DNA from: Paraburkholderia sp. Tr-20389
Lineage (GTDB): Bacteria; Pseudomonadota; Gammaproteobacteria; Burkholderiales; Burkholderiaceae
Assembly: GCF_017104565.1 (NCBI RefSeq)
Contig: NZ_JAAGPD010000005.1
Span: forward strand, 1-64,000
Direction: 5' to 3'
Length of the DNA stretch: 64,000 nt
How positions within the stretch are numbered: position 1 is the stretch's first letter; each line of letters starts with the position of its first letter. The notes beneath the pieces are model-generated. The model was not told the DNA's origin. It saw only the letters and a program-made list of their open reading frames with translations, and searched no databases. The position numbers were made by a program, and so were the translations under genes. This document shows, piece by piece, positions 5,904 through 23,255 of this stretch.

Positions 5904-5926
5904 CTTGTTTGTCTGCGACGCAATGA

Positions 5927-6655
5927 GGCCTTCGTGGCGCGGGCTACGCCTTTTGGTTTTTGCTCCGCCGCTTTTGCTTTCGCATTCGCTTTTGCTTTCG
6001 CTGGCATCCGCGTTTTGGTGTTGGTCGTTCATGCGTTGCCCCTGTGCGGGGCGGCACCTACTTTTCTTTGCAGCGGCAAAGAAAAGTAGGCAAAAGAAAG
6101 CCGCTCACACCGCCAATCCTTCTTCCCGCCTGCGGGCCCCCAACCGGTCCCACACTCCACACGGCAACACTTCGTTTTCCGCCCGTTGCCAACGCCCTGA
6201 ACACGCGCATCACCTACTTCACACGCCCCCATCACAGCGTGCGCGACCAGACGTCCACGGCCGCCCAGGTGGCAAACTGTGTGTAGGCCATCGCGATCGA
6301 AGTGCACCACTCCGGACTGAAAAGCGGGATCGGTGTCGTAGGATCGCGAACGAATGTGGTGCGATTACCTACACACAGTTTGCCACCTGGGCGGCGCTGA
6401 CGAGTCGCTGCCGCTGGCTGCCTGCGAGTGATTGGAGTGGGTGATGCGCCTGTTCAAGGCGCTGGCAACGAGCATTGAGTAGCTCGATGCCGTGTGGAGT
6501 GTGGGACCCGTTGGGGGCCCGCAGGCAACGACTAGCATTGGCGGTGTGAGCCCGCTTTCTTTGCTTACTTTCTTTGCGGCGGCAAAGAAAGTAAGTGCCG
6601 CCCCGCACAGGGGCAACGCACGAACAACCGCTACGAAAACGCGGATGCCAGCGAA
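5927..6655. repeat. Nested-palindrome intergenic element, copy B, between convergent fliR and flgL
   Basis: The 843-bp gap 5904-6746 holds no credible gene. Three levels of inverted symmetry are visible. Outer: GGCCTTCG...TGGCATCCGCG on the left against CGCGGATGCCA on the right, then GCGTTGCCCCTGTGCGGGGC (from 6033) and its complement (to 6619). Middle: a 15-bp hairpin with 4-nt loop at 6057-6090 ('alpha' arm) and a different 14-bp hairpin at 6564-6595 ('beta' arm). Inner: a perfect 28-bp inverted repeat at 6260-6287 and 6368-6395 around exactly 80 bp (6288-6367). The same inner layout is seen in copies C and D. Arm order here is alpha left, beta right. Confidence 0.92.
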
Positions 6656-6720
6656 GAAACCAACACACCAAGACAAAACCGCCCGACCCGTAAAAAAAGA
6701 GCCAGGCGTCGTCGAGACAC

Positions 6721-6745
6721 AAAAAAACTTCCGGGGAACCCGGAA
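6721..6745 (-). terminator. Intrinsic terminator of flgK-flgL
   Basis: On the minus strand, TTCCGGG, a 3-nt loop and CCCGGAA form a perfect 7-bp stem (6729-6745). It is followed by G and seven T residues (6727-6721). It begins one base after the flgL stop codon. Confidence 0.85.
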
Positions 6746-6746
6746 A

Positions 6747-7967
6747 TCAATTCCCGATGTAATCGAACAGCGACAGCTTCTGAATCATCGAGAAGCCCTG
6801 CTGCGCAGCCTGCAGCGAGAACTGCGTCATCGTGTACTTGCTGATCGTCGACGTCAGATCCGTCTGCGTCAGATCAGCAAGATTGCTGCTCGTCTGCAAC
6901 GAGTTAGTTTGCGTGACGGTCTGCAGCGCCTCGATCTCCTGCTCACGTCCGCCCACGGACGTCTGAATCGACGTCACGTTGTTCATCGTGTTGTGCAGCT
7001 GCGTCATCGCCGTGCCCAGCGCGTTCGTCAGGTTCGCCTGACCGCCCGGCCCGTTGACGGAGGTTTGCAGCGCGGCAATCACCTTGTCGAGGTTCGCGAA
7101 CACGTCGGTGCTCGATTGCGCCGCCGGCGTCACCGAGAACGAATCGCCCGCATTCGGCGCGCCCGAAATCGTCACGTTCTGGCCGCCGCCGCCCAGCGTG
7201 ATCGCCTGACCCGCCGCGTACGTCTGCGGCGCGCTCGTCGTGGCCGCCGTGACGTCCGTGATCGTGTACGTCGTCGCCGACGTGAAGTTGATCGTGTACT
7301 TGTCCTGGTTCGTCGGATCGGTCGGGTTGCTCACCGACACGTTGCCGATCGTGCCCGAACCCGTGTTGGCCGAATTGCCCGCCGTCACAGGCGAGCTGCC
7401 CGCCGGCGAAATGCCGAGGAACACGTCGCGGCCCGTATCGCCGATCGCGATGTTACGGGTGCCCGTCACCTGCACGTTCTGGATGCCGTTGTCGCCGTTG
7501 TATTGCACGGCGCCGCTCGCATCGACCGAGAAAGGCGGCGTCGCTGCCTGATAGCCGGCGTACAGATAGTTGCCCGAGCCGTCCGTGCCGTTCGCGAGAC
7601 CCATCAGCTGGCTACGGATGCCCTGCAGCTGCGTCGCGATATCGCCGCGGTCGCCGTCGTTCAGCGAGCCGTCGCCGGCACGCACGAGCAGCGTGTTGAT
7701 GGACGTCAGCACCGTATTGACGCTGGACAGCGAGCCGTCTTCCGATTGCAGCGCCTGCAGCGCGGTGTTCTGGTTGCTCGAGTACTGCGAGAGCGTCGCG
7801 CCCTGCATGCTGAGCTGCACGGCCTGCGCCGCGCCGACGGGATTGTCCGACGGCGTCGACAGGCTCACGCCGCTCGACAGTTGCTGATACAGCTGCGCGA
7901 GCGTCGATTGCTGATCGTCCATCGTCTGGACGTTCATGCCGAAATATTGCGAAGTAGAGATGCGCAT
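6747..7967 (-). CDS. flgL: Flagellar hook-filament junction protein FlgL (HAP3)
   Basis: Second junction protein between hook and filament. 406 aa: flagellin-like N-terminus (M-R-I-S-T-S-Q-Y-F, L-Y-Q-Q-L-S-S-G) and C-terminus (L-T-S-T-I-S-K-Y-T-M-T-Q-F-S-L-Q-A-A-Q) that form the D0/D1 coiled core. A Thr/Ser/Ala-rich middle region forms the exposed domain. It lies 14 bp downstream of flgK on the same strand and is probably cotranscribed with it. An intrinsic terminator follows directly. Confidence 0.94.
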   Translation of the reverse strand: MRISTSQYFGMNVQTMDDQQSTLAQLYQQLSSGVSLSTPSDNPVGAAQAVQLSMQGATLSQYSSNQNTALQALQSEDGSLSSVNTVLTSINTLLVRAGDGSLNDGDRGDIATQLQGIRSQLMGLANGTDGSGNYLYAGYQAATPPFSVDASGAVQYNGDNGIQNVQVTGTRNIAIGDTGRDVFLGISPAGSSPVTAGNSANTGSGTIGNVSVSNPTDPTNQDKYTINFTSATTYTITDVTAATTSAPQTYAAGQAITLGGGGQNVTISGAPNAGDSFSVTPAAQSSTDVFANLDKVIAALQTSVNGPGGQANLTNALGTAMTQLHNTMNNVTSIQTSVGGREQEIEALQTVTQTNSLQTSSNLADLTQTDLTSTISKYTMTQFSLQAAQQGFSMIQKLSLFDYIGN

Positions 7968-7981
7968 ATGCGTTCAACGCC

Positions 7982-9955
7982 TCACTGGAAAATGCCAAGG
8001 ATCGTCTGGAACAGCGTCTGTGCTGTCTGGATGACCTTGCTGTTCGCCTGATACAGCTGCTGGTATTGCAACAGGTTCGCGGCTTCTTCGTTGATGTTCA
8101 CGCCCGAGATCGCCTGCTGCGCCGTCGTGATCTGCGTCACCAGCGCCGACTGCGCCTTGTTCGATGTCTGGACCTGGTTCGTCTGGTTGCCGATGTCGTT
8201 CACATAGTTCGCGTACGAGTCAGTCAGCGTCAGCGTGCCGTTGCCCATCGACTTCGCCGTCACCAGATTCGAGATCAGCTGTGCGTTGCGGCCGTCCTTG
8301 CCGCCCGCCGGGTTCGGCGCGATCGTGTAGGTGTCCCCGTTCGCGGGCGAGCCCGTGATCTGCAGCGACACGTTGTTGATCGTCGTGCCCGTGATCGTCA
8401 TCGACGCGCCCGTGGCCGAGTTGTACGGAACGGGCGTCGTGGTCGCGGTGATGTTGTACGAGGTCGGCGGCGTGCCGTCGATCGTCACCGTCGAGCCGAC
8501 CGGGAAGCCGGACAGCGAACCCGTGGTCGAATCGTACGTGAGCGTCGTCGAGGTGCTCGGCAGCGTGTAGCCCGACGACACCGTGCCTTGCGTTACCGTC
8601 GACGTGCCCGTGTTCGACGTACCCGTCGACACGAGAACCGGCGACGAAGCCGCGATCGCCGAGCCGTCGCTCGTCGTGAGCGCGAAACCGTTGAGCGCGC
8701 CGCGCGTCGGTTCGACGGTAAACGAATCGCCCGCGTTCATCGTGCCTGACAGGTTGAACTGCATGCCGCCGATCGGGTTGGTCAGGTTCGACGCCTGGCC
8801 GACGACCTGGCCCGTATCGCGGTTGGTCAGCGTGTAGTTCGTGCCGTCGTACGACAGCGAGTAGTCACCCGATACCGGTTGCGTCGCATTCGACAGCGTC
8901 ACGCCCAGCGTCGCGCTGCCCGTGTTGTTGGCGTTCGCGTAGACGGTCGGATTGCCGACCGTGAAGAGCGCACCGCCCTTGTTGCCGTTCAGGTCGATAC
9001 CGAGCGAGTTCTGCGCGTTGACCTGTGCGGCGAAGCTCGTCGCGATCGCACCGAGTTGCGCTTCGGCGGGATCGAGCGTCTGGCTGCGGAACGTCATCAG
9101 CCCACCGATCTGCCCTCCCAGCGGTGTGCTGTCGGGCAGGATTTGCGGCGTCGTCGTTCCTGCAAGGCTCGAAAGACCTGCGTACGCAACGGCCGTTTCC
9201 GTCGGATCCGATGGGGACGTGACCGTCGTGAGATTGAAGCTCTTGTCGGCGACGACGAGCGGCTGGCCGTTGCCCATGAACACGCTATAGCCGCTATCGC
9301 CCTGCACGACCTGGACGCCGACCAGTTGCGACAGGTTCGACACCGCGAGGTCGCGCTGGTCGAGCAGCTGGTTAGGCGGCTGGCCTTGTGCGCTCAGCGA
9401 CTGGATCTGCGAGTTCAGCTGCGCGATTTGCGAGCTGTACGTGTTGATCTGCTTGACCGTGTCGCTGAGTTGCGTGTTGACGTTCGCGCGCAGCTGATCG
9501 TACTGGTCGCCGGCAGCGTTGATCTGGTCCGCCAACGATTGCGCGTTGCTGATGGCGCTTTGGCGCATTGCGGGATTCGACGCATCGTTCGCGACGTTCT
9601 GCAGACCGGTGAAGTAGCTCGTGACCGCGCTCGAGATACCCGAGGTCGGGCTGCCGACCATGTTGTTGAGCTGGGCGATCAGGTTGTAGTAGGAATTGAG
9701 CGAGCCGGACTGCGACTGAGCGTTGTTGAGCTCGGTCGTCAGGTACTGGCTGTACTGGCGCTGGACGGTCGTCGTCGACACGCCGCTGCCGAGATAGCCG
9801 GAGCCCGTGTACTGACCGCTCGATTCCGCGTAGACGGGACGCTCGACGGAATAGCCGGGCGTTGCCTGGTTGCTGATGTTCTGACCCGTAGTCGTCAGCC
9901 CCCACTGGGCTGCGTTGAGTCCACTAAGGCCGATGCTAAAAAGGTTACTCGACAT
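7982..9955 (-). CDS. flgK: Flagellar hook-associated protein FlgK (HAP1)
   Basis: First hook-filament junction protein. 657 aa, with the rod/hook-type N-terminus (S-G-L-N-A-A-Q-W-G-L-T-T-T-G-Q-N-I-S-N) and the matching C-terminal motif (V-N-I-N-E-E-A-A-N-L-L-Q-Y-Q-Q-L-Y-Q-A-N-S-K-V). A long Thr/Ser/Gly-rich variable region occupies residues about 300-550. The gene is followed closely by flgL. A sigma-28-like promoter lies about 70 bp upstream, which fits the late export of this protein. Confidence 0.95.
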   Translation of the reverse strand: MSSNLFSIGLSGLNAAQWGLTTTGQNISNQATPGYSVERPVYAESSGQYTGSGYLGSGVSTTTVQRQYSQYLTTELNNAQSQSGSLNSYYNLIAQLNNMVGSPTSGISSAVTSYFTGLQNVANDASNPAMRQSAISNAQSLADQINAAGDQYDQLRANVNTQLSDTVKQINTYSSQIAQLNSQIQSLSAQGQPPNQLLDQRDLAVSNLSQLVGVQVVQGDSGYSVFMGNGQPLVVADKSFNLTTVTSPSDPTETAVAYAGLSSLAGTTTPQILPDSTPLGGQIGGLMTFRSQTLDPAEAQLGAIATSFAAQVNAQNSLGIDLNGNKGGALFTVGNPTVYANANNTGSATLGVTLSNATQPVSGDYSLSYDGTNYTLTNRDTGQVVGQASNLTNPIGGMQFNLSGTMNAGDSFTVEPTRGALNGFALTTSDGSAIAASSPVLVSTGTSNTGTSTVTQGTVSSGYTLPSTSTTLTYDSTTGSLSGFPVGSTVTIDGTPPTSYNITATTTPVPYNSATGASMTITGTTINNVSLQITGSPANGDTYTIAPNPAGGKDGRNAQLISNLVTAKSMGNGTLTLTDSYANYVNDIGNQTNQVQTSNKAQSALVTQITTAQQAISGVNINEEAANLLQYQQLYQANSKVIQTAQTLFQTILGIFQ

Positions 9956-10021
9956 GCGTCATCCTGAAAGACGGCGTAAGGGGCAATGCATGAGCACTGC
10001 CAGGTTGACCGAACTCTTTGT

Positions 10022-10048
10022 ATAACGGCCTCGTGGGCGGAACATTGA
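10022..10048 (-). promoter_or_regulatory. Probable sigma-28 (FliA) promoter of flgKL
   Basis: Read on the minus strand: TCAATGTT, exactly 11 nt, GCCGTTAT. Compared with TAAAGTTT-N11-GCCGATAA, the -35 half matches 5 of 8 and the -10 half 6 of 8. The same GCCGTTAT occurs in the flgM promoter. It lies about 67 bp before the flgK start. Confidence 0.55.
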
Positions 10049-10124
10049 GGGCGGAATGAGGTTTTTTGCCTGCGGCGCGGCTGCGCCGTTACGATTTTTT
10101 TTCTGCGACGCAGTCGCCATTCTT

Positions 10125-10933
10125 GCCTTCTCGGCGCGGGCTATGCCTTTTGGTTTTTGCTCCGCGCTTTCGCTTTCGCTTTCGCTTTCGCTTTCGCTTT
10201 CGCTGGCATCCGCGCTTTCGTAGCGGTTGTTCATGCGTTGCCCCTGTGCGGGGCGGCACTTACTTTCTTTGCCGCCGCAAAGAAAGTAAGCAAAGAAAGC
10301 GGGCTCACCCCGCCAGTGCTACTTGTTGCCTGCGGGCCCCCAACAGTTCTTACGCTCCAGGCGGCATCACGCTGATTTTGTGCCCGTTGCCAGCGTGCTA
10401 ACTCACGCATCACCCGCTTCACACTCCCGCGTCACGGACCGCGTTACCAGGAGTCGACGGCCGCCCAGGTGGCAAACTGTGTGTAGGCCGTCGCGATGGA
10501 AGTGGTCCACTCCGGACTGAAAAACGGGAGCGGTGTCGTAGGAACGCGAACGCGTACGGTGCGACAACCTACACACAGTTTGCCACCTGGGCGGCGCAAA
10601 CCATTTGCTGCCGCTGGCTGCTTTACGGGTGACTGGAGTGGGTGATGCGCGTGTTCAGGGCGTTGGCAACGGGCGGAGAACGAAGTGTTGCCGTGTGGAG
10701 TGTGGGACCGGTTGGGGGCCCGCAGGCGGGAAGAAGGATTGGCGGTGTGAGCGGCTTTCTTTTGCCTACTTTTCTTTGCCGCTGCAAAGAAAAGTAGGTG
10801 CCGCCCCGCACAGGGGCAACGCATGAACGACCAACACCAAAACGCGGATGCCAGCGAAAGCGAAAGCAAAAGCAAAAGCGAAAGCAAAAGCGCGGAGCAA
10901 AAACCAAACGGCGTAGCCCGCGCCTCGAAGGCC
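10125..10933. repeat. Nested-palindrome intergenic element, copy C (arms swapped), between flgK and ycgR
   Basis: The gap 9956-10958 carries no credible gene beyond a promoter near flgK. The element has the same 28-bp inner inverted repeat (10460-10487 and 10568-10595) and the same 80-bp core orientation as copies B and D. Its arms are exchanged: the 14-bp beta hairpin is on the left (10259-10290) and the 15-bp alpha hairpin on the right (10765-10798). The switch points lie at GCATCACC near 10407 and GGTGATGC at 10641. Outer symmetry is the best preserved of all copies and runs to GCCTTC / GAAGGC, including hexamer repeats on both sides. Confidence 0.92.
10166..10201. repeat. Hexanucleotide tandem repeat (GCTTTC)x6 in the left end of copy C
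   Basis: Six perfect GCTTTC units. The opposite end of the same element (about 10855-10890) has the complementary array with GAAAGC and AAAAGC variants. Copies B and D have degenerate GCTTTT/GCTTTC versions at the equivalent place with fewer units. Confidence 0.9.
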
Positions 10934-10958
10934 CCACCGCAGAAAAACAAAAAGCAGG

Positions 10959-11708
10959 TTAAGCGCGCGCCAACGAGCGCCGCTTCATCTCCAGTTGGGT
11001 AATCAACCGCTGAAGCGTGTTCTCAGCATTCCCCGGCAGGGACAAAAACCTGAACCCCAACGTATACCGCTGCGTACCATTAGGCAGATCGATACTCCGG
11101 TTCGACATCAACTCGAGATCGAGCTGCAAAGTGCCCAGCGCCCCAAGCATCACTTCCGTATCGATCAGCTGCACGCCCTGCTCCAGCGACGTCACACGCG
11201 CGTCGCTCGTCCGCATCGCGATGCCGCCCAGCGACAGATCCTGCACCTCGAAGCGGAAACCCTCGCCATCCGGCAGCCGGCCCCGGCAAATGTACGGATC
11301 GAGCAGCGGCGCGTCGACGCGGAAATACTCGCGGCGCTGCACGTAATAGAGCACTTCGGGGAAATCGGCCTCGAACGACGGTCGGCCCTCGAAGGTCGTC
11401 TCGCGCGGCGTGTGCGTGGCAAAGTGAACCCGCACACCATCCGGCGTCGCGTGGAAATGGCCTTCGGGCGATGACAGCAGGCCGCGGTTCTGGTCGGCGA
11501 GCGCGCCCCAGTCGAACGTGAACGTGCGCTCTCGCACGTCCACCTCGAGGATCTTCGTCACGAGCTGGCCGCCCTTGTACTGCACGGTCAGAAAATCGCC
11601 GCGGTTGAGCAGGTTGCGCAACTGCACACCGATCTCAAGCGGATTGCGGCGGCCGAAGTCGACGCCTTCCGTCTCGCGGTTATCACCATTCGACTGGGTG
11701 GTATTCAT
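10959..11708 (-). CDS. ycgR: Flagellar brake protein YcgR (PilZ domain, c-di-GMP binding)
   Basis: YcgR binds cyclic di-GMP and slows the motor by contacting the stator/C-ring. 249 aa: an N-terminal YcgR (PilZN-type) domain, residues about 20-115, then a PilZ domain. The two c-di-GMP contacts are visible: an R-R-E-Y-F-R segment (R-x3-R type) at about 128-133 and D-L-S-L-G-G (D-x-S-x-x-G) at about 158-163. It is encoded alone on the minus strand with a strong sigma-28 promoter about 140 bp upstream, so it should appear late with the motor and chemotaxis genes. Repeat copy C follows it. Confidence 0.92.
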   Translation of the reverse strand: MNTTQSNGDNRETEGVDFGRRNPLEIGVQLRNLLNRGDFLTVQYKGGQLVTKILEVDVRERTFTFDWGALADQNRGLLSSPEGHFHATPDGVRVHFATHTPRETTFEGRPSFEADFPEVLYYVQRREYFRVDAPLLDPYICRGRLPDGEGFRFEVQDLSLGGIAMRTSDARVTSLEQGVQLIDTEVMLGALGTLQLDLELMSNRSIDLPNGTQRYTLGFRFLSLPGNAENTLQRLITQLEMKRRSLARA

Positions 11709-11845
11709 GGCCTTGCCAATTTCTCTTCGTTCTTGCGGGCACGTCGCGCGTACACGGTCAGCCAGGTCTCAGCCCGGCCTGCATCGGTCGCGAAACACGC
11801 GTGGGACCGGAATTTTCTACGCTTTCCGGTATCGGGTCTGACTGT

Positions 11846-11872
11846 TTAGCGGCAGCGTCGGATCAAAGTTTA
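11846..11872 (-). promoter_or_regulatory. Sigma-28 (FliA) promoter of ycgR
   Basis: Read on the minus strand: TAAACTTT, exactly 11 nt, GCCGCTAA. This matches 7 of 8 in each half of TAAAGTTT-N11-GCCGATAA. It lies about 138 bp upstream of the ycgR ATG. The rest of the gap to flgJ (11873-12105) shows no gene; a weak GC hairpin before a T-run near 11980-12000 could end flgJ transcription. Confidence 0.8.
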
Positions 11873-12105
11873 GCCCGGTTTTACGAAATATTTTCCGCAA
11901 ACGTTTGACGCCGCAACGAAGACAGGATACGCGAAACTCATTGCGCATCCGGCAAATGGAAGAGACTGGACAGAAGAGAAAAACGGCTCTGGCCAACCGC
12001 CGAACGGGTGGCCTCAACGACATCGCACCGCCGTCGGCGCGATGCCCGTCAGGTGCTGCGCGGCGACGCTCCCCGACACACTCGGGCGCGCCGCGCCGGC
12101 AATCG

Positions 12106-13038
12106 TCACACCATCTTTTGCATGATCGAAATGAGCTTCTTCGCGTAGTGCGGATCGGTCGCGTAACCGGCGCGCTGCATGCCCTGCGCAAAGCCGTTCA
12201 CGTCGCGCGACGAATTGATCACCTGCGCATAACGCGGATTCGACTTCAGGAAGCTCGCGTAGTCCGTCATTGCTTCCTCGTACGAATCGTATGCGCGGAA
12301 TTTCTCGACCACGCGCTGCGGCCGCCCGTTGACATACTCGGTCGTGACCGTCGCCACGGTCTTGCCGGTCCAGTCGTCGGTGGCCTTGATGCCGAAGATG
12401 TTGTGGCTCGTCGAGCCATCCGACTTCTTGATCTCGCGCTTGCCCCAACCCGATTCGAGCGCGGCCTGGCCGATGATGAAGCGCGCCGGAATGCCCGTCG
12501 CGGCACTCGCGGCCTGCGCCGGAGCAGCCAGCTTGTCGACGAACGCATCGACTTTGTCCGACGAACCGTCGCCGCGCACGGGCGGCGTCAGCGCGCTGTT
12601 CGCCGAATAACCCTTGCCCATCTTCAGCGCGCCGTTGTTGGCCGGATTCGAATAGGCCTTCGCCAGCGCATTCAAAGCGACGTTGTTGCCCGCGTTCGAA
12701 TCGTCGCCGGATACACCGGAGTTGCGCATCAGCTGCTTGAGCATCGCGTCCGCAACGCCGATGCCCTTCGACGACATCTGCTGCGAAAGCTGCTGATCCA
12801 TCATCGACGTGAACGTCGCCGAATCGTGCGAATCGAACGGACCGTCTTGCGGCGTCGCATCGCGCATGCTCTTCAGCATCATCTGCGTGAAGACGGCGTC
12901 GAACTGCTTTGCAGCTGACTTCATCGCCTCGCGCGGATTCGCGGCTGCTTGCGCGCGCATCGCATCGAAGCCCTGCGTGTCGAGCGCGAACCGATTGGTC
13001 AGGTCATTCGCGGCGTTACGCGTCGTGTCGGAGTTCAT
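12106..13038 (-). CDS. flgJ: Flagellar rod-cap / peptidoglycan hydrolase FlgJ
   Basis: A two-domain protein that caps the growing rod and opens the peptidoglycan layer. 310 aa. The N-terminal rod-binding domain covers residues about 35-115 (A-A-K-Q-F-D-A-V-F-T-Q-M-M-L-K-S-M-R). The C-terminal glucosaminidase/muramidase domain starts about residue 155, with the catalytic Glu in Q-A-A-L-E-S-G-W-G and the family's N-I-F-G-I-K and Y-A-x-F-L motifs. It ends the flgBCDEFGHIJ run, 12 bp after flgI. Confidence 0.95.
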   Translation of the reverse strand: MNSDTTRNAANDLTNRFALDTQGFDAMRAQAAANPREAMKSAAKQFDAVFTQMMLKSMRDATPQDGPFDSHDSATFTSMMDQQLSQQMSSKGIGVADAMLKQLMRNSGVSGDDSNAGNNVALNALAKAYSNPANNGALKMGKGYSANSALTPPVRGDGSSDKVDAFVDKLAAPAQAASAATGIPARFIIGQAALESGWGKREIKKSDGSTSHNIFGIKATDDWTGKTVATVTTEYVNGRPQRVVEKFRAYDSYEEAMTDYASFLKSNPRYAQVINSSRDVNGFAQGMQRAGYATDPHYAKKLISIMQKMV

Positions 13039-13050
13039 TCTTGTTGTTCC

Positions 13051-14238: not shown

Positions 14239-14240
14239 GA

Positions 14241-14951: not shown

Positions 14952-14989
14952 CTTGATTACCGCCTAAGTGTTTCCGACTATCAGCCTGC

Positions 14990-15778
14990 TTAAACCGGCA
15001 TCTGGCTGAGCGTCTGCAGCATCTGGTCGGAGGTCGTCACGGCCTTGCTGTTGATCTCGTACGCGCGCTGGGTCTGGATCATGTTCACCAGTTCCTGCAC
15101 GACGTTCACGTTCGATGCTTCGACGTAGCCCTGATTCAGCGTGCCGGCGCCGTTCAGACCCGGTGTCGCGACGTTCGGCGTGCCCGACGACGTCGTTTCC
15201 GCGAACAGGTTTTCGCCCTTCGCATCGAGACCCGTCGGGTTGATGAAGGTGGCGATCTGCAGCGAGCCGATCTGCGTCGTCGCCGTCGAGCCTGCCGTCG
15301 TCACCGACACCACGCCGTCGCTGCCGATCGTGAGCGACGTCGCGTTCTGCGGAATCGTGATGGCGGGCAGCACCTGATAGCCGCTCGACGTGACGAGCTG
15401 GCCTTGCGAGTTGGTCTGGAACGAGCCGTCGCGCGTGTACGCCGTCGTGCCGTCCGGCATCTGCACCTGGAAGAAGCCCTGGCCGTTGATCGCGACGTCC
15501 TTCGAATTGCCCGTCTGCTGCAGGTTGCCCTGCGTGTACAGACGCTCGGTGGCGACCTGCTGCACGCCCGTGCCAAGCTGGATGCCCGACGGCAGTTCCG
15601 TCTGCTGCGTCGAGTTCGCGCCCGGCTGGCGGATCGTCTGATACAGCAGGTCTTCGAACACCGCGCGCGAGCCCTTGAAGCCGTTCGTGCTGACGTTCGC
15701 GAGGTTGTTCGAGATCGTGTCCATCTGCGCCTGTTGCGCATTCATGCCGGTGGCGGCGATATAGAGTGAGCGGTTCAC
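14990..15778 (-). CDS. flgG: Flagellar distal rod protein FlgG
   Basis: Builds the distal rod that crosses the P and L rings. 262 aa, the classic length, starting [16 protein letters not shown]. The rod signature [13 protein letters not shown] lies at about residues 23-35, and the C-terminal motif [14 protein letters not shown] near 225-240. It follows flgF by 50 bp. Confidence 0.96.
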
Positions 15779-15828
15779 TTGTTTCTCCTGAACGCAGCGT
15801 GGCGCGTTCCGTTAAATCTGCGTCGGGA

Positions 15829-16587
15829 TTAGCTGAAGTTCAGCAGCTTGTTGGCCGACTGTTCGTTCTGGTCGGCGGACTCGATCATCTTGGTCTGCAT
15901 CTGGAACTGACGGGCGTTGGTGATCATCGAGACCATCGCCGACACCGGGTTCACGTTGCTGCCTTCGAGGGCGCCAGCCGCGACGACCACACCGGGGTCG
16001 GCGTCGGCGGGATTGCCGTCGCTCGTGTGAAAGAGGCCGTCATTGCCGCGCGTGAGCGCGCCAGGGGCGGGATTCACCAGCTTCAGCTGATCGACGAGCG
16101 CGATCGTCGTGGCGGGATCGCCCGGCATCAGCGCCGATACCGTGCCGTCCTTGCCGATCGTCACCTGCGCGCCGGGCGGCACGGCCACCGGGCCGCCGCC
16201 GCCGACCACGGGCATGTTGCTGGCCGTCACGAGCTGGCCGTTTTCGTCGACGTGCAGGTTGCCTGCACGCGTGTACGCTTCCTGGCCGTCGGGCGTCAGG
16301 ACGGACAACCAGCCCGGACCCTGGATCGCGACGTCGAGCGGATTGCCCGTCTGCTGGAGCGGGCCGGGCGTGTAGTCCGCGCCCGGCGTGGACGACAGCA
16401 CGAAAGTGCGGGTGGTGTCGTCCTGAATCGTGCTGCCGTCGCCGAACGCCATCGGCACGGCGCGGAACGTCGCGAGCTGGGCCTTGAAACCCGTGGTCGA
16501 GGTGTTCGCGAGGTTGTTCGCGACCACGGCCTGCTGTTCGAGCGCCTGGGTCGCGCCCGACATCGCGGTGTATATGAGCCGGTCCAT
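15829..16587 (-). CDS. flgF: Flagellar proximal rod protein FlgF
   Basis: Proximal rod subunit. 252 aa, starting M-D-R-L-I-Y-T-A-M-S-G-A, with the rod signature N-N-L-A-N-T-S-T-T-G-F-K and a middle domain with G-P-G-W-L-S-V. The C-terminus has V-S-M-I-T-N-A-R-Q-F-Q-M-Q-T-K-M. It sits between flgE (22 bp upstream) and flgG. Confidence 0.95.
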   Translation of the reverse strand: MDRLIYTAMSGATQALEQQAVVANNLANTSTTGFKAQLATFRAVPMAFGDGSTIQDDTTRTFVLSSTPGADYTPGPLQQTGNPLDVAIQGPGWLSVLTPDGQEAYTRAGNLHVDENGQLVTASNMPVVGGGGPVAVPPGAQVTIGKDGTVSALMPGDPATTIALVDQLKLVNPAPGALTRGNDGLFHTSDGNPADADPGVVVAAGALEGSNVNPVSAMVSMITNARQFQMQTKMIESADQNEQSANKLLNFS

Positions 16588-16609
16588 GATGGTGTCGGTA
16601 CGTCAGCGA

Positions 16610-18115
16610 TTACAGGTTGATGAGCGTCTGGTCGACGGTCTGCTGGGTCTTGATCGTCTGCGCGTTCGCCTGGTAATTGCGTTGCGCGGTGATCAGGTTC
16701 ACCAGCTCGCTCGTCAGGTCGACGTTCGAGTTTTCCGTCGCGCCGCCTTGCAGCGAGCCGTGGTTCGTCGAGCCCGGCGCGGCGACCACTGCAACGCCCG
16801 AAGCAGCCGTTGCCTGGAACTGGTTGTTGCCGAGGTTGATCAGGCCGTTCTGGTTCGCGAACGTTGCGAGTGCGACCTGGCCGAGTGCAGCCGTCTGGCC
16901 GTTCGAGTAATTGCCGGTGATCGTGCCGTCCGTGCCGACCGTGAAGTTGGTCAGCTGGCCGGCTGCGAAGCCGTCTTGCGTCAGCGAGTTCGTGCCGTCC
17001 TTGCTGCCGAACTGCGTCGTGCCGCCGATCTTCAGCGTCAGGCTCTGCGGCGTCGCCGAGCCGTCCGAGTTCGGGATCGAGAAGTTGAACGCGAACAGCG
17101 TCGAGGTCGGGTTGCCCGACGAGTCGAGCGTGCTGACCAGATTGCCCGACGTGTCGAACTTCGCGGTGCCGACCTTCGTCGTCGACACGTTGCCGTCCTT
17201 GCCCGCGTAGACATCCCACGAACCGGCCGAGGTCTTCACGAAGTACATATCGACCTGTTGTTCGCCGCCCAGCGAGTCGTACACGGGCACCGAGGTCGAG
17301 TAGCTGTACGTCGCGCTGTTGGTCGGGTCGAAGGCCAGCGCCGTCGGCGAGACCGTCAGCGAGTCGCCCGTTGCCGGCGTGCCCGCCAGCGTGATCGTCT
17401 CGCCGTTGCCGAGCTTGATCGGCGAGTTGGCGGAGTACGTGCCCGTGGTGCTCGTGCCGTCGCTCGACGTGACCGTGTAGGCCGTCGCGCTCGAGAACGT
17501 GATCGTGTACGTGTTCGCGTTCGTGCCTTGCGTCGCGTCCGTGATCGACACGCCGTTGTTCGTCAGGCTGCCCGTGCTGGTCGTGAAGTTCACAGCGGGC
17601 GTGCCCAGCTTGAGCGCGTCCTGCGCGTTCAGGTTCAGGCCTGCCGTGATGGTCGTCGTGGCCGTCGGCGGAATGTTCGCCGTCGGCACCTGCAGCGGCA
17701 CCGTGCCGGCCGTGTTGATGATGCCGTTCGCGTTCGCCGCGTAGCCCATCAGCTTCAGACCGTCGGCGTTCGTGATGTAGCCGTTCTTGTCGAGCTGGAA
17801 CACGCCGTTGCGGGAGTATGTCAGCGAGCCGTTGTTCGACATCTGGAAAAAGCCGCTGCCGTTGATGGCGACGTGCAGTGCGATGTCGTCCGTCGAGATC
17901 GTGCCTTGCGAGAAGTTCTGCTCGACTTGCGACATGCGCGTGCCGATACCGATCTGGTTGTTGACGGCCGTGGCGACCGAGTTCGCGTACATATCGGCGA
18001 ACTGTGCAGCGCCCTGCTTGAAGCCGACGGTGTTCGCGTTCGCGATGTTGTTGCCGATGACGTCGAGGTCGCTCGATGCGCCTGCCAGTCCGCTCAATCC
18101 TTGTTGGTAACCCAT
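16610..18115 (-). CDS. flgE: Flagellar hook protein FlgE
   Basis: Main hook subunit. 501 aa, starting M-G-Y-Q-Q-G-L-S-G-L-A-G, with N-N-I-A-N-A-N-T-V-G-F-K near residues 22-34 and the C-terminal rod/hook motif V-D-L-T-S-E-L-V-N-L-I-T-A-Q-R-N-Y-Q-A-N-A. At 501 aa it is longer than the ~400-aa enteric hook protein. The extra length is in a Thr/Ser/Ala-rich central region, probably the surface D2 domain. Confidence 0.95.
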   Translation of the reverse strand: MGYQQGLSGLAGASSDLDVIGNNIANANTVGFKQGAAQFADMYANSVATAVNNQIGIGTRMSQVEQNFSQGTISTDDIALHVAINGSGFFQMSNNGSLTYSRNGVFQLDKNGYITNADGLKLMGYAANANGIINTAGTVPLQVPTANIPPTATTTITAGLNLNAQDALKLGTPAVNFTTSTGSLTNNGVSITDATQGTNANTYTITFSSATAYTVTSSDGTSTTGTYSANSPIKLGNGETITLAGTPATGDSLTVSPTALAFDPTNSATYSYSTSVPVYDSLGGEQQVDMYFVKTSAGSWDVYAGKDGNVSTTKVGTAKFDTSGNLVSTLDSSGNPTSTLFAFNFSIPNSDGSATPQSLTLKIGGTTQFGSKDGTNSLTQDGFAAGQLTNFTVGTDGTITGNYSNGQTAALGQVALATFANQNGLINLGNNQFQATAASGVAVVAAPGSTNHGSLQGGATENSNVDLTSELVNLITAQRNYQANAQTIKTQQTVDQTLINL

Positions 18116-18148
18116 GACGGTCTCCGTATCTGGTGATGCTGAATGCGT

Positions 18149-18868
18149 TTAGATAATGGCGGCGACCGTCGACAGGCCAACCGTTTTGCCGTTCGACAGA
18201 ACGAGTCCAGGCGTGCCGTCCGTCTGCTTGATGACGCCTTGCACGGTCGCTGCCGACAGCGTGGTGGGCGCGCCCGTGCCGTTTGCCGTCGTGCTTGCAG
18301 CCGTGAACGTATAGGTGCCGTCGGGCAGCGCGTTGCCGCTCTTGTCGACGGGCGTCCAGCCGACGGGGATCGTGCCAGCGGACTGCTTGCCGAGGTCGAT
18401 CGTGTTGACGATCTGGCCTGCCGAGTTCTTGACGGTGACCTGCACGTCCGTCGCGTCGCTGGCGAGCGTGACGCCAAAGCCCGTTGCCTTGCCCGACGAC
18501 ACCGAGAAGCTGTCGCCCGGTGCGAGCACCGTCGAGTTGATCAGGTTCGCGGCCTGCGTCTGCTGGTTGGTCGTCAGTTGCGAAGCAAGCGAGGTCAGCG
18601 ACGAGTTCAGCTGGCCGATGCCCGTCACCGTGTTGATCTGCGCGAGCTGCGAGGTCATCTGCGAGCTGTCCATCGGGCTCGTCGGATCCTGGTTCTTCAT
18701 CTGCGCGATGAGCAGTTGCAGAAAGGTGTTCTGCAGGTCGCTGCCCGAGGTCGCGCTCGACGAGCTGCTCGACGAAGACGACGACGCACTGGTCGTGCCG
18801 TTCATCGTGTCGAGCAACGTCTGCGAAACGGACGCGCCGTTGTTGCCGATAGTGGTACTGGTAGTCAA
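18149..18868 (-). CDS. flgD: Flagellar hook cap / assembly protein FlgD
   Basis: Scaffold that caps the growing hook. 239 aa. Family landmarks are F-L-Q-L-L-I-A-Q-M-K-N-Q-D-P-T-S-P-M-D at about residues 50-68 and a C-terminal Ig-like/FlgD domain. A pure serine run at about residues 33-43 makes a low-complexity linker. It precedes flgE by 33 bp. Confidence 0.95.
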   Translation of the reverse strand: MTTSTTIGNNGASVSQTLLDTMNGTTSASSSSSSSSSSATSGSDLQNTFLQLLIAQMKNQDPTSPMDSSQMTSQLAQINTVTGIGQLNSSLTSLASQLTTNQQTQAANLINSTVLAPGDSFSVSSGKATGFGVTLASDATDVQVTVKNSAGQIVNTIDLGKQSAGTIPVGWTPVDKSGNALPDGTYTFTAASTTANGTGAPTTLSAATVQGVIKQTDGTPGLVLSNGKTVGLSTVAAII

Positions 18869-18879
18869 GGAGCTTCTCC

Positions 18880-19305
18880 TCAGGTTCCGATCGTGAGCGT
18901 CTTCAGCATCAGCTGTTTCGCGGTGTTGAGCGTTTCGACGTTGGCCTGGTAAGAGCGCGATGCCGAAATCATGTTGACCATTTCCTGCACGGGGTCGACG
19001 TTGGGCAACTGGACGTAACCGTTTGCGTCGGCGGCCGGGTTGCCGGGTTCATACGACGTCTTCATCGGCGTCGGATCGTCGATCACACCCGTCACCTGCA
19101 CGCCGCCGACCTGCTGGCCCGAGCCCGTGCGCGCGCCGCCGATCGGGTTGACGGCGAACACGACCTGCTTCGCCTTGTATGGCTTGCCGTCGGGGCCCGT
19201 CGTACTGTCGGCGTTCGCGAGGTTCGACGCGGTCACGTTCAGGCGTTGTGACTGCGCGGACATCGCCGAACCGGCGACGTTGAAAATGTTCATCAGGGAT
19301 GGCAT
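18880..19305 (-). CDS. flgC: Flagellar proximal rod protein FlgC
   Basis: Proximal rod subunit. 141 aa, normal length, beginning [18 protein letters not shown]. The rod motif A-S-N-L-A-N-A-D-S sits at about 27-35, and the C-terminal motif [18 protein letters not shown]. It lies 107 bp after flgB and 11 bp before flgD. Confidence 0.95.
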
Positions 19306-19412
19306 GGCTTTTCGACCTCTCTTGCCGGTGCACCGGCGTCTAATCCCGTAGCGTTCTGGTTTCTAGCGTTGGTCCAGCGCGCCGCCTTCTCTATGGAGGG
19401 CAGCGCAATTCA

Positions 19413-19904
19413 TCAACCGTTCGACGTGATCGCCGACAGCATGGCCTTGATCTGCTGCGACAACACCGTCATGCCCGACTCGAAGTGCAGCGAGTTGTCG
19501 GCGAACTGCACGCGCTCGGCGTCCAGATCGACGGTGTTGCCATCCAGCGAAGGCTGCGCCGGAATGCGGTAGGCGACGCGGCCGAAATCGTCGGTCGGGC
19601 CGCCCGTCGCGACGAGGCGCGCCTTGCCCGTCATGTGGCCCGGCTCCGTCGAAGTCATCGACATGCCTTGCGACACGCCGGCCGGCTGCGTCATAGCGAG
19701 CTGAGAATTGTTCGACGCGCCCGCCGTCGAGCCGCCGCTTTTCTTCAGCGCACCCGCGAGCGACGAAGCGAAGTCGATATCGCGAGCCTTATAGCCCGGC
19801 GTATCGGAGTTCGCGATGTTCGACGACAGCAATTCCTGGCGATAGGCGCGCACATCGAGCGCCTGGCGGCCAAAGGCAAATTCGGCATCGAGTTTGTCCA
19901 GCAT
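19413..19904 (-). CDS. flgB: Flagellar proximal rod protein FlgB
   Basis: Proximal rod subunit and first gene of the minus-strand flgBCDEFGHIJ run. 163 aa, somewhat longer than the ~138-aa enteric protein. It has R-Q-E-L-L-S-S-N-I-A-N-S-D-T-P-G-Y-K-A-R-D-I-D-F near residues 23-46 (the rod signature) and N-T-V-D-L-D-A-E-R toward the C-terminus. It is divergent from flgA. Confidence 0.95.
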   Translation of the reverse strand: MLDKLDAEFAFGRQALDVRAYRQELLSSNIANSDTPGYKARDIDFASSLAGALKKSGGSTAGASNNSQLAMTQPAGVSQGMSMTSTEPGHMTGKARLVATGGPTDDFGRVAYRIPAQPSLDGNTVDLDAERVQFADNSLHFESGMTVLSQQIKAMLSAITSNG

Positions 19905-20080
19905 TGGGTTCTCCGTGGAACGGTCCAGGGCCGCCCGTCCGCACCGTCGATCCGCCTTGTTCGGTAAGAAGCGTTTCGACTGCGCCGGCCGGAAGGCCTT
20001 TTTGCATGTGACGCATTGTGCGGGCGGGGCGCAAGACTTAATCGGACGAATAGCCGGGAAAGGACGCCTCTATTCACCGT

Positions 20081-20107
20081 TTGCACGAAGGGCGCGATCT
20101 CTAGAAT
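20081..20107 (+). promoter_or_regulatory. Possible sigma-70-type promoter of flgA
   Basis: In the 240-bp flgB-flgA divergent gap, TTGCAC and TAGAAT are separated by 15 bp, about 40 bp before the flgA start. The spacing is short, so activator help (FlhDC would fit by analogy with enteric flgA/flgB) is likely. No FlhDC box could be named with confidence. Confidence 0.35.
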
Positions 20108-20144
20108 GCGATGCGTACCGATGCATCAATGAAGGAGAACGACC

Positions 20145-21410
20145 ATGCCCTTGCCCGCCACCGCTTCGCGCGAAGCTCGCCGTATGGGCGCGTGCGCTGT
20201 CCGGACGCTGTCGGCGATGGCGCTGGTCAGCGCTTGCGCCGCTGCATCCGTTGCGCATGCACAGGAAAGCGGCTCGTCCGGCGGCGGACCGATCGTGATC
20301 GCCGGACCCGGCGAGAAGAATCCTGCCGAACTGCAGGCGATGGCCGAACGCATCAATACGCCGTCGCCCGCTGCCGCGCCGCGTGCGAGCGTTCCGGCTG
20401 GGCCGTCCGTTGCGCCCGCAACGCTTGCCGCGAATCCGCGCGGCGACGCGGACCGCTTCGCGCAAGCCGCCCGTGCCGATGGTGCGATCGTGATTCCGGG
20501 CGCGGACGAAACGCCCGCACAGCGGAGTGCGCCCGTCGCGCCGGCCAATATGAATGCCGCTGCACCGGGCATGATGCGCGTGAGCCTGCAGCCGGCGTCG
20601 CGTCAGGTGATGCCTGTGATGGTCGCGCCCGCTCAGGCTGTTGCGCGTCAAACGGCGGGCGTACAGCCGATCGCCGTGAATCCTCCCGCCGGCAATGCCG
20701 CCGCGCGCAATGGCGTGGCTGCTGCTCAGGCAGGCACTCAAGCACCGGCGCAGGCAGCGGCTCAACCCGCCGCGCCGACGCCGCCCGGACAACAGGACGG
20801 CGAATCGATCCGCCGTGCGGCGCTCACGTATTTGCAGCAGCAGTCGGCGGGTTTGCCGGGCAAGGTCGACATCACCGTCGCAACGGTGTTTCCGCGCGGT
20901 CTCGCCGCGTGCACGACGCTCGAGCCGTTCCTGCCGACGGGTGCGCGTGTCTGGGGCCGCACGACGGTCGGCGTGCGCTGCGCCGGCGAGCGTCCGTGGA
21001 CGCTGTATCTGCAGGCCAAGGTTTCGATTCACGCGACGTACTTCGTCGCCGGGCGCTCGATTGCGCCGGGCGAGCTGCTGTCGGCCTCCGATCTCGTTGC
21101 GCGCGACGGCGATCTGACGGTTCTGCCGCAAGCCGTGATCACCGATCCGTCGCAGGTGGTCGGCTCGGTCGCGTTGATGCGCGTGTCGCCGGGTTTGCCG
21201 CTGCGACGCGACATGTTGAAGAGCGCCGAGGCGGTGTCGATCGGCCAGAGCGTGAAGGTCGTCGCTCAGGGGCCGGGGTTTGCGATTTCGGCGGAAGGCA
21301 GCGCGATGAACAACGCGTCGCCGGGTCAGCCGGTCAAGGTGAAGACGGCGAACGGGCAGATTATCCAGGGCATCGTGAAGGACGCCGGAACGGTCGAAAT
21401 CCAGCTCTGA
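20145..21410 (+). CDS. flgA: Flagellar P-ring chaperone FlgA, with a long N-terminal extension
   Basis: Periplasmic chaperone for FlgI. 421 aa, about twice the usual ~220. A signal peptide (residues about 1-40, cleavage near A-H-A-Q) is followed by roughly 190 residues of Ala/Pro/Gln-rich low-complexity sequence. The recognisable FlgA/SAF region starts near residue 215: V-D-I-T-V-A-T-V-F-P-R-G-L-A-A-C, R-C-A-G-E-R-P-W-T-L-Y-L-Q and S-V-K-V-V-A-Q-G-P-G-F-A-I-S-A-E-G, ending V-K-D-A-G-T-V-E-I. A strong ribosome site (AAGGAGAAC) precedes the ATG. It is divergent from flgB and upstream of flgM. Confidence 0.92.
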   Translation: MPLPATASREARRMGACAVRTLSAMALVSACAAASVAHAQESGSSGGGPIVIAGPGEKNPAELQAMAERINTPSPAAAPRASVPAGPSVAPATLAANPRGDADRFAQAARADGAIVIPGADETPAQRSAPVAPANMNAAAPGMMRVSLQPASRQVMPVMVAPAQAVARQTAGVQPIAVNPPAGNAAARNGVAAAQAGTQAPAQAAAQPAAPTPPGQQDGESIRRAALTYLQQQSAGLPGKVDITVATVFPRGLAACTTLEPFLPTGARVWGRTTVGVRCAGERPWTLYLQAKVSIHATYFVAGRSIAPGELLSASDLVARDGDLTVLPQAVITDPSQVVGSVALMRVSPGLPLRRDMLKSAEAVSIGQSVKVVAQGPGFAISAEGSAMNNASPGQPVKVKTANGQIIQGIVKDAGTVEIQL

Positions 21411-21460
21411 AGCGGGATTGCAGTGGTTACAACTTGAAAAATGGGTCGGATCGGTTGAGC

Positions 21461-21487
21461 TAAAGTTCGATGGGTGAATGCCGTTAT
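21461..21487 (+). promoter_or_regulatory. Sigma-28 (FliA) promoter of flgMN
   Basis: TAAAGTTC (21461-21468), exactly 11 nt, GCCGTTAT (21480-21487). The -35 half matches 7 of 8 and the -10 half 6 of 8, with ideal spacing. The upstream in-frame ATG at 21474 lies inside this promoter, so it cannot be translated from this transcript. Confidence 0.85.
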
Positions 21488-21515
21488 TACATTCAAATCG
21501 TTCAGGAAGCCGATC

Positions 21516-21857
21516 GTGAAAGTTGATTCCACTACCCATTCAGGCCTGCAGACGTTGAAAGACGGCCTGCAGCGCACGCAGCAAGGCGACACCGCGACGA
21601 CGGGCGGTGTCGGCGCGTCGACGTCGACGGCCACGGGCGCGTCGGGTGACGCGAGTGTCAATCTGTCGGGACTGTCGTCGCAACTGCACAGCCTCGCGAG
21701 CGCCGGTTCGTCGGACATCGACACGTCGCATGTCGCGTCGATCAAGCAGGCGATCAAGGACGGAACGTTGACGATCGACTCGGGGAAGATCGCTGACGGC
21801 GTGCTGGCAACGGCGCGCGACCTGTTGCAGAAGAAGAGCCAGTCGTCCGGTAACTGA
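21516..21857 (+). CDS. flgM: Anti-sigma-28 factor FlgM (GTG start)
   Basis: FlgM holds FliA inactive until it is exported through the finished hook. 113 aa from GTG, reading V/M-K-V-D-S-T-T, the usual FlgM N-terminus, with AGGAAG 6 nt upstream. An ATG 14 codons earlier is in frame but lies within the sigma-28 promoter and would add a non-family extension. The N-terminal half is disordered and Ser/Thr/Gly-rich. The C-terminal half carries the FliA-binding helices (V-A-S-I-K-Q-A-I-K-D-G-T-L-T-I-D-S-G-K-I-A). It is followed by flgN. Confidence 0.92.
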   Translation: MKVDSTTHSGLQTLKDGLQRTQQGDTATTGGVGASTSTATGASGDASVNLSGLSSQLHSLASAGSSDIDTSHVASIKQAIKDGTLTIDSGKIADGVLATARDLLQKKSQSSGN

Positions 21858-21954
21858 TGACGCACCGATGAACGGTGCGCTGGGTGCCGGGCGGTATTTG
21901 TGACACATCCGGGCTGCGCAAGCCGCAATCCGGTGCCTAGCGAGTTGTTTAGTG

Positions 21955-22401
21955 ATGAAAGACGCCCTGCTTGCCACCGTCATCGACGAATATTCCGCTG
22001 TGGAGCTGTTTGCCTCCGTCCTCGCTGCCGAGGAGAGGGCGCTGACCACGGTGCATCCCATCGACACGCTGCCGCCCATCGTCGAAAAGAAGATGGAGTT
22101 GGTGGAGAAGCTCTCCGTACTGGAGAAGGTTCGCGACTCGCAGCTTTCGGAGCTTGGTTATCCTGCCGGATGGAAGGGCATGGAGCTGGCCGTCGCCAAT
22201 GATTCGCGTCTTGCGACGCAGTGGTCGTTGTTGCAGAAGTCCGTCGAGCGGGCCAAGCGGTTCAACACTACCAACGGCGCGTTGATTCGTACTCGCATGG
22301 AGTACAACCGCCGGGCTCTGGCCGCCTTGAATGTGGCCGTTGGGCCGGAGCGTGGAGCGTTGTATGGCCCTGACGGGCGGGTTCCTGCTTTTGGGGTTTG
22401 A
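21955..22401 (+). CDS. flgN: Flagellar export chaperone FlgN
   Basis: Chaperone for FlgK and FlgL, and a partner of FlgM in late gene control. 148 aa, largely helical: residues 1-60 contain D-E-Y-S-A-V-E-L-F-A-S-V-L-A-A-E-E-R-A-L and E-K-K-M-E-L-V-E-K-L. The C-terminal part has N-T-T-N-G-A-L-I-R-T-R-M-E-Y-N-R-R-A-L-A-A-L-N, the FlgN signature around the 'N-G' bend. ATG at 21955 is used; a GTG one codon earlier is possible. It is cotranscribed with flgM. Confidence 0.9.
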   Translation: MKDALLATVIDEYSAVELFASVLAAEERALTTVHPIDTLPPIVEKKMELVEKLSVLEKVRDSQLSELGYPAGWKGMELAVANDSRLATQWSLLQKSVERAKRFNTTNGALIRTRMEYNRRALAALNVAVGPERGALYGPDGRVPAFGV

Positions 22402-22406
22402 GTCGG

Positions 22407-22424
22407 AGGGGCTTGGCCCCTTTC
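22407..22424 (+). terminator. Weak intrinsic terminator after flgN
   Basis: AGGGGC, 3-nt loop, GCCCCT, then TTTCTG, starting 6 bp after the flgN stop. The stem is short (6 bp) and the T tract is interrupted. Confidence 0.45.
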
Positions 22425-22495
22425 TGATTCCCCTGTTCTTCTTTGCTTCTTACCGGACCGGTGCCTTTGGGTGCCGGTTTTGCTTTTTGGGGTTT

Positions 22496-23216
22496 GGCCT
22501 TCGAGGCGCGGGCTGCGCCGTTTGGTTTTTGCTCCGCGCTTTTGCTTTTGCTTTTGCTTTCGCTGGCATCCGCGTTTTGGTGTTGGTCGTTCATGCGTTG
22601 CCCCTGTGCGGGGCGGCACCTACTTTTCTTTGCAGCGGCAAAGAAAAGTAGGCAAAAGAAAGCCGCTCACACCGCCAATCCTTCTTCCCGCCTGCGGGCC
22701 CCCAACCGGTCCCACACTCCACACGGCAACACTTCGTTTTCCGCCCGTTGCCAACGCCCTGAACACGCGCATCACCTACTTCACACGCCCCCATCACAGG
22801 GTGCGCGACCAGACGTCCACGGCCGCCCAGGTGGCAAACTGTGTGTAGGCCATCGCGATCGAAGTGCACCACTCCGGACTGAAAAGCGGGATCGGTGTCG
22901 TAGAAGCGCCAACGCATGCAGTGCAACAACCTACACACAGTTTGCCACCTGGGCGGCGCAGACGAGTCGCTGCCGCTGGCTGCGCTACGGGTGACTGGAG
23001 CGGGTGATGCGCCCGTTCGAGGCGCTGGCAACGAGCATTGAGTAGCTCGATGCCGTGTGGAGTGCGGGACCCGTTGGGGGCCCGCAGGCAATCACTAGCA
23101 TTGGCGGGGTTAGCCCGCTTTCTTTGCTTACTTTCTTTGCGGCGGCAAAGAAAGTAAGTGCCGCCCCGCACAGGGGCAACGCATGAACGACCAACACCAA
23201 ATCGCGGATGCCAGCG
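22496..23216. repeat. Nested-palindrome intergenic element, copy D, between convergent flgN and fliA
   Basis: The 934-bp gap 22402-23335 has no credible gene. The element is almost the twin of copy B: alpha arm left, beta arm right, inner 28-bp inverted repeat at 22822-22849 and 22930-22957, and an 80-bp core in the same orientation. The left half differs from copy B at only a few positions over more than 300 bp. The last ~26 bp of the core differ at many positions. The left end has degenerate GCTTTT hexamers. Confidence 0.92.
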
Positions 23217-23255
23217 CAGCAAAAGCCGCAGATGCCAACAGGAAAACAAGCGCAC

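Follow-up and report, generated by a model that had tools for sequence, protein, structure and literature searches.

The first 64,000 nucleotides of contig NZ_JAAGPD010000005.1 of Paraburkholderia sp. Tr-20389 (hereafter the window, meaning this whole stretch) carry a large symmetric element that recurs in gaps between genes, and the locus raises the question of what this element is and how its copies evolve. The initial annotation reported the same element in three gaps (5927-6655, 10125-10933, and 22496-23216), and it is present in all three; a perfect 28-bp inverted repeat around an 80-bp core was taken as its defining part. Comparison with other genomes of the genus places the constancy elsewhere: core length, the inner 24-mer, or the whole interior differs in other species, whereas both ends and the palindromic layout are retained. 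We consider it likely (probability roughly 0.7) that the copies form a family similar to REPINs (hairpin-forming doublets of repetitive extragenic palindromes, REPs), in which gene conversion from copy to copy homogenises the interiors and sometimes replaces them across the whole genome. The element would consist of two constant inverted end modules, each with a GC hairpin, a T-rich tail and a perfect 14-15-bp hairpin, enclosing a palindromic interior. Copies of one genome would trade interiors through their shared ends, in either orientation, by ectopic recombination or gene conversion, and a minor interior would occasionally displace nearly all others; exchange among copies would thus give one prevailing interior per genome. 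The process would probably be RecA-dependent, perhaps begun by palindrome breakage, and a hairpin-recognising enzyme may have first spread the elements.

In total, 145 genomes of the genus (designated Gnnn) were compared, and the source genome (G000; 9.0 Mb in 129 contigs) was searched with a 25-bp end motif. With up to two mismatches, the motif occurs 129 times in forward and 125 times in reverse orientation (reversed-pattern control, 0), and there are about 125 end-motif pairs genome-wide. Eighty-five copies were collected that have both ends correctly ordered and spaced: 84 with the interior of the three annotated copies (family A; window sites s1-s3) and a fourth window element, s0.

Syntenic 64-kb regions were taken from five relatives (G020, G115, G161, G001, and G108). 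The same four gaps, s0-s3, are occupied in G000, G020, G115, G161, and G001 (s2 of G020 holds an insert), and the syntenic region of G108 retains an element at s2 only. Family A interiors are found at s1-s3 of G000, G161, and G001 and at s1 and s3 of G020. In G115, s1-s3 hold a different interior, family B, that is 70-76% like the s0 interior of G000, G020, and G115. B and A interiors are 0.45-0.51 alike, compared with a mean of 0.46 and a maximum of 0.50 for shuffled B against A. The s0 interior of the window is 80-82% like s0 of G115 and G020, 71-75% like s1-s3 of G115, and 42-49% like family A. At s0, G161 and G001 have yet another and shorter interior (C), in which a short stretch of the inner-arm motif survives.

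The difference between G115 and its relatives extends over the genome. Forward/reverse counts of a 20-bp end motif are 128/126 in G000, 121/126 in G020, 131/130 in G115, and 19/23 in G108. The A motif is counted 116/117 times in G000, 115/118 in G020, and 4/5 in G115, and the B motif 1/1, 4/4, and 117/115 times, respectively; the prevailing interior is B in G115 (about 116 B, 5 A) and A in its sister G020 (about 116 A, 4 B). For 11 of 20 B loci of G115, both flanks match one collected G000 copy, in every case a copy with an A interior; together with s1-s3, 14 of 14 comparable gaps hold B in G115 and A in G000. An unrooted tree of a single gene, flgK, joins G115 with G020 (0.972) and G000 with G108 (0.997), and places the two pairs next to each other. 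Since G115 adjoins A-bearing G020 and G000/G108, the A-to-B swap looks derived, the simplest course being replacement of A by B on the G115 branch of this one-gene tree.

Family A interiors are also without positional memory. From 20 G020 loci and the syntenic region, 15 elements passed the end filter and 11 of these had a counterpart among the collected G000 copies; ten pairs were A-A, nine after removal of one duplicate. Over the nine unique pairs, interiors of the same gap are 0.827 alike between G000 and G020 and those of different gaps 0.823 (0.844 within G000, 0.852 within G020), so same-gap copies are no closer than different-gap ones. Orientation is the same in four pairs and flipped in five, with flanks about 91% identical. 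Rearrangements also fall at elements: G108 carries an inversion of about 15.8 kb with breakpoints at s1 and s3 (window about 5900-6700 and 22500-23270), and one of its junctions is just the GC hairpin between two spacers. In G115, the L194 locus likewise brings together flanks that belong to two different G000 copies. The scarcity of elements in G108, together with an inversion at elements, agrees with copies having recombined and palindromes having collapsed.

Several points weigh against interior conversion. Seven of the G115 loci have no counterpart among the 85 collected G000 copies, and two of the 20 are partial, one a single-flank match at a contig end and the other (L194) joining the flanks of two G000 copies. 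The sample of A-A pairs is nine. Within 200 bp of the ends, two flanks of the same gap are barely closer than two flanks of different gaps, in fixed windows that do not tolerate indels; as near-end flanks are almost as diverged in the one case as in the other, identity of insertion is supported by gene neighbourhood and does not extend to the junction itself. Base-level comparison of these gaps resolved no conversion tract, which leaves conversion as our inference, and ordinary RecA recombination over short shared ends between unlike A and B interiors is expected to be inefficient. Only tentatively would we go further and regard the end pair with its palindromic shape as the heritable unit and the interior as a free cassette spreading by drive, a minor variant having converted more than 100 occupied sites of a single genome in one lineage, driven by palindromes that break and are repaired from another copy.

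Within each window copy, the three separate levels of symmetry seen by the initial annotation prove to be one: the main arm pairs share a centre, so that a family A element is a single imperfect palindrome of about 660 bp (centre of copy 1, about 6327). Each arm runs inward from an outer GGCATCCGCG motif through a variable spacer of about 20 bp, the end motif GCGTTGCCCCTGTGCGGGGCGGCAC with its GCCCC/GGGGC hairpin, the perfect 14-15-bp hairpin, and the arm proper to the 28-bp inner arm and the 80-bp core. The hairpins were correctly annotated (loops of 4 nt), as was the perfect 28-bp inverted repeat around the core in three of three copies. The features are as follows.

706..1144, no strand: element s0 (fourth element), shared end modules with a family B interior of about 290 bp; end motifs at 706 (+) and 1120 (-)
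5997..6655, no strand: copy 1 (site s1), family A; inverted repeats around one common centre
6033..6057, + strand: copy 1 left end motif, terminator-like, facing inward; GC hairpin 6035-6055, then T-rich tail
6057..6090, no strand: copy 1 left perfect hairpin, stem 15 bp, loop 4 nt (inverted-repeat scan)
6260..6287, + strand: copy 1 inner arm, 28 bp
6288..6367, no strand: copy 1 core, 80 bp
6368..6395, - strand: copy 1 inner arm, inverted, 28 bp
6564..6595, no strand: copy 1 right perfect hairpin, stem 14 bp, loop 4 nt (inverted-repeat scan)
6595..6619, - strand: copy 1 right end motif, terminator-like, facing inward
10125..10932, no strand: copy 2 (site s2), family A; arms of 142 nt, 90%; palindrome reaches into low-complexity flanks
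10235..10259, + strand: copy 2 left end motif, terminator-like, facing inward
10259..10290, no strand: copy 2 left perfect hairpin (inverted-repeat scan)
10460..10487, + strand: copy 2 inner arm, 28 bp
10488..10567, no strand: copy 2 core, 80 bp
10568..10595, - strand: copy 2 inner arm, inverted, 28 bp
10765..10798, no strand: copy 2 right perfect hairpin (inverted-repeat scan)
10798..10822, - strand: copy 2 right end motif, terminator-like, facing inward
22561..23216, no strand: copy 3 (site s3), family A (inverted-repeat scan)
22595..22619, + strand: copy 3 left end motif, terminator-like, facing inward
22619..22652, no strand: copy 3 left perfect hairpin (inverted-repeat scan)
22822..22849, + strand: copy 3 inner arm, 28 bp
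22850..22929, no strand: copy 3 core, 80 bp
22930..22957, - strand: copy 3 inner arm, inverted, 28 bp
23127..23158, no strand: copy 3 right perfect hairpin (inverted-repeat scan)
23158..23182, - strand: copy 3 right end motif, terminator-like, facing inward

By Pfam, copy 1 separates convergent genes of the Bac_export_1 (FliR-type) and flagellin-N (FlgL-type) families, copy 2 lies between PilZN/PilZ (YcgR-type) and FlgK genes, and copy 3 separates convergent FlgN and sigma-70-type genes. Low-complexity GCTTTC/GCTTTTGC tracts (window 10140-10204 and 10853-10915) stand outside the ends of copy 2, roughly mirrored, and vary from copy to copy. The claim that the element sits between genes and breaks none stands for the three window copies; genome-wide, 81 of the 84 family A copies of G000 are placed between two predicted genes, but a predicted gene overlaps 13 of 84 (by crude open reading frame (ORF) calling).

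The inner inverted repeat is kept in all 84 full family A copies of G000, with two exact 24-mer arms in 34 elements. Core length is 80 bp in 63 copies, 79 in 19, 78 in one, and 82 in one, and the two inner arms of a copy, compared over 27 bp, are identical in 33 of 84 (mean likeness 96.5%). Conservation among copies is 0.98 for inner arms, 0.97 for the outer GGCATCCGCG motif, 0.94-0.95 for end modules, and 0.91 for the core; it is lower in the arms (0.85-0.89) and in the spacer outside the left end (0.69). The supposedly constant 28-bp arms and 80-bp spacing are thus kept within the genome but not between species. Copies of G001 and G161 have a core of 84 bp, and 20 loci taken from G139 gave 18 elements, all A-like, with the 24-mer altered in one arm in 15. 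A mixture of interiors in G139, where the A count is about half the end count, was rejected on these 18 of 18 A-like elements; the A count of G130 is likewise about half its end count, and one element was read there. The three window copies are a small sample of the family, and the 80-bp core is not its deep feature. Changes of core length, 24-mer, or interior between species argue against a processed structured RNA with a fixed core, one of the initial proposals. Another, a non-autonomous mobile element, is compatible with the dispersed, non-coding, symmetric family found here, and the window gave no match to Rfam covariance models at the gathering threshold. Two kinds of altered copy were seen in G000. 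About 110-130 bp, comprising an end motif and outer flank, are repeated beside a full element at L058, L077, and L097, and an insertion of about 1.2 kb (L031:1810-2990, contig C18) lies in the right hairpin of a copy and carries a 317-aa transposase-like ORF, putatively of IS5 type.

What is kept across species was surveyed in 19 genomes, with 285 end modules of which G000 supplied 154. Of these 285, 279 retain the first GC stem unbroken, 276 have at least 6 T within the next 14 nt, and in 255, but not in the other 30, the second stem is perfect over 9 bp or more. Second-stem sequences vary and yet are self-complementary (CCTACTTTTC, CTTACTTTC, GTTACTTTC, CCTACTTTC, CCTACTTCTC, CCTTCTTTC, and CTTCCTTTC), a compensatory pattern that suggests selection for folding of one strand, whether of DNA or of RNA. 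Left and right end modules of 32 elements are 0.81-1.00 identical, and in all 32 interiors, of several sequence types, arm identity exceeded the best of 30 single-base shuffles each; palindromic shape outlasts sequence. A fold of one sequence from each of nine genomes contains 43 compensatory cells, compared with 18.8 in shuffles, which lends weak support to a structure derived from the same alignment. Arm-to-arm copying within a copy was rejected as the sole source of symmetry, since end-adjacent spacers are only slightly more alike within a copy (0.70 and 0.74) than between copies (0.62 and 0.66, respectively). Ends and palindromic shape appear to be under constraint.

The ends are widespread in the genus and the interiors are not. 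The 20-bp end motif (one mismatch) is found in 127 of 145 genus genomes, and the 25-bp motif (three mismatches) in 59 of 299 genomes and 5 of 25 genera of the family, some by single weak matches. A search of the genome and its relatives, as the initial annotation proposed, showed the family to be dispersed in its own genome, but the inner 24-mer (three mismatches) occurs in just 14 of 145 genus genomes, with one or two weak matches each in G005, G070, and G084. The B motif occurs in five of 145, G078 and G129 having single matches with two mismatches, at the level of the reversed control. In a wider contig collection, from which near relatives may be absent, the A motif matched four stretches, all of Burkholderia sp. 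Ac-20365, and the exact B motif none. Plasmid-collection matches came from 10 Paraburkholderia, 7 Burkholderia, and 5 Caballeronia records, those of Burkholderia spanning 10-13% of the query. The A motif at G108:C3:260,738-260,864 lies within a match to plasmid pBPHY01 (260,655-261,127), which makes P. phymatum STM815 the probable identity of G108. Such an element was not found described in open-access PMC literature searches by titles and abstract openings, and the end sequence had no match in the text of the open-access papers searched.

Could the differing interiors have arisen without conversion? A hairpin-end enzyme might remove old elements and insert new ones at the same limited sites. 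Specific recognition is suggested by the breadth of the 20-bp end motif and the compensated hairpins, flank junctions do not align, and two further sites, s4 and s5, are filled in G001 and G161 and empty in G000, G020, and G115. We nevertheless think such site-directed turnover unlikely, as no enzyme was found with the elements and no target duplication was resolved between occupied and empty s4/s5, the sequences being too divergent. One Y1_Tnp gene of G000 was identified by Pfam (G000:C12:60181-60885; L131, L202; Y1, IS200-like) and a second match by similarity search. The top match to the Pfam-identified gene shows 85-100% identity in 144 of 145 genomes, among them the 18 that lack the end motif. 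Thirty of these top-match loci were inspected, and no end motif lies within about 1.5 kb on either side of them. The gene looks domesticated, and its product may be the enzyme that recognises element ends. An autonomous transposon was also considered. Among 11 long versions from G063, G065, and G066, with 1.1-3.3 kb between the ends, eight have a transposase-like ORF (three assigned by Pfam: rve, Mutator, and rve) and three have none; these ORFs probably represent insertions into the element, and the autonomous transposon was rejected on these grounds. Four long versions (L115, L116, L119, and L121, from G065 and G066) have a conserved 150-187-aa ORF between the end motifs, with no Pfam or NCBIfam match over the cut-off. 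A simple burst, in which a MITE-like element (MITE, miniature inverted-repeat transposable element) amplified in each lineage and within-genome similarity marks recent amplification, would suit the strong differences in end-motif counts between relatives (G108 against G000). It leaves unexplained the 14 of 14 same-gap interior differences, the equal likeness of same-gap and other copies, and the flips; a burst before the split should give neither flips nor greater similarity within than between genomes, and we regard it as improbable. Averaging or mixing of repeats by short-read assembly is hardly credible: G000 is in 129 contigs with some elements at contig ends, but G115, G020, G001, G161, and G108, in 4-5 contigs, show the same patterns, and interiors within one genome differ by 5-24%.

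A role in ending transcription from both sides is compatible with interior conversion and does not exclude it. Whichever side polymerase comes from, it is predicted to meet the GC hairpin with its T-rich tail, followed by an arm rich in C and poor in G (Rho-type); changes of the interior would be tolerated as long as ends, composition, and symmetry stay. All eight ends of the four window elements match a terminator-like consensus rule, facing inward, with a GC-rich hairpin followed by a T-rich tail as in an intrinsic terminator, although the tail is broken and has no continuous T-run. Tail and GC stem are retained in nearly all ends surveyed in the 19 genomes. By ORF-based gene calls, 81 G000 copies lie in 43 convergent, 34 tandem, and 4 divergent gaps, against 12, 80, and 36 for control gaps (Fisher, p=4e-12 for convergent and p=2e-5 for divergent), a bias that promoter avoidance alone would produce in part. 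Inward C-over-G skew is seen in 168 of 168 family A arms (mean -0.263) and in 38 of 72 control 3′ gaps (-0.020), but it is weaker in family B (26 of 32 arms, mean -0.107), and some arms with other interiors show almost no skew or a positive one. Each element region holds only modestly more terminator-like sites in total than its shuffles (5 vs 1.8, 3 vs 2.3, 4 vs 1.6, and 5 vs 0.9). On sequence grounds, we put this function at somewhat below even odds.

The class itself is ordinary, namely dispersed intergenic palindromes. Integron attC sites resemble the present element in that their ends are conserved and enclose a palindromic interior that is homogenised and specific to the species, although the Paraburkholderia copies are dispersed and not in cassette arrays. 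MITEs share with it non-coding content, terminal inverted repeats, and high copy number; it differs in that no parent transposon was found among the 11 long versions, no target duplication was resolved at s4/s5, and the interior is kept palindromic. Like bacterial interspersed mosaic elements (BIMEs), it is a composite of inverted units in intergenic DNA; a difference from BIMEs is that sister genomes here record the replacement of interiors at gaps already occupied. As REPINs and REP doublets are described in three sources (PMC3116915, PMC2817692, which also names BIMEs, and PMC8266576), the present element agrees with them in being extragenic, in exceeding 100 copies per genome, in having two inverted hairpin-bearing ends around a spacer, and in leaving solo-end remnants. 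The inverted end modules and the ability of the doublet to form a hairpin are further likenesses. One REPIN type has end 16-mers 71 bp apart (PMC3116915), whereas the Paraburkholderia element is about 650 bp long with an interior itself palindromic and replaceable. The GTAG tag that REPs carry at a palindrome of 20-40 bp is not kept, the second stems beginning CCTAC (with GTAG on the other side), CTTAC, GTTAC, CCTTC, or CTTCC, and end motifs are lacking at the 30 loci, described above, that resemble REP-associated tyrosine transposase (RAYT) genes. The present element stands out by its size, by ends that stay constant while the palindromic interior can be exchanged, and most of all by the replacement of interiors at occupied gaps across a whole genome. 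In a large bacterial genus, the elements serve as markers of breakpoints of rearrangement and probably also of gene 3′ ends. The part of gene conversion in the evolution of dispersed bacterial palindromes is an old question, reportedly raised for REPs in the title of a 1988 paper by Higgins et al. Sister genomes with the same gaps and different interiors make it testable, and in them the direction, tract length, and rate of conversion can be measured.

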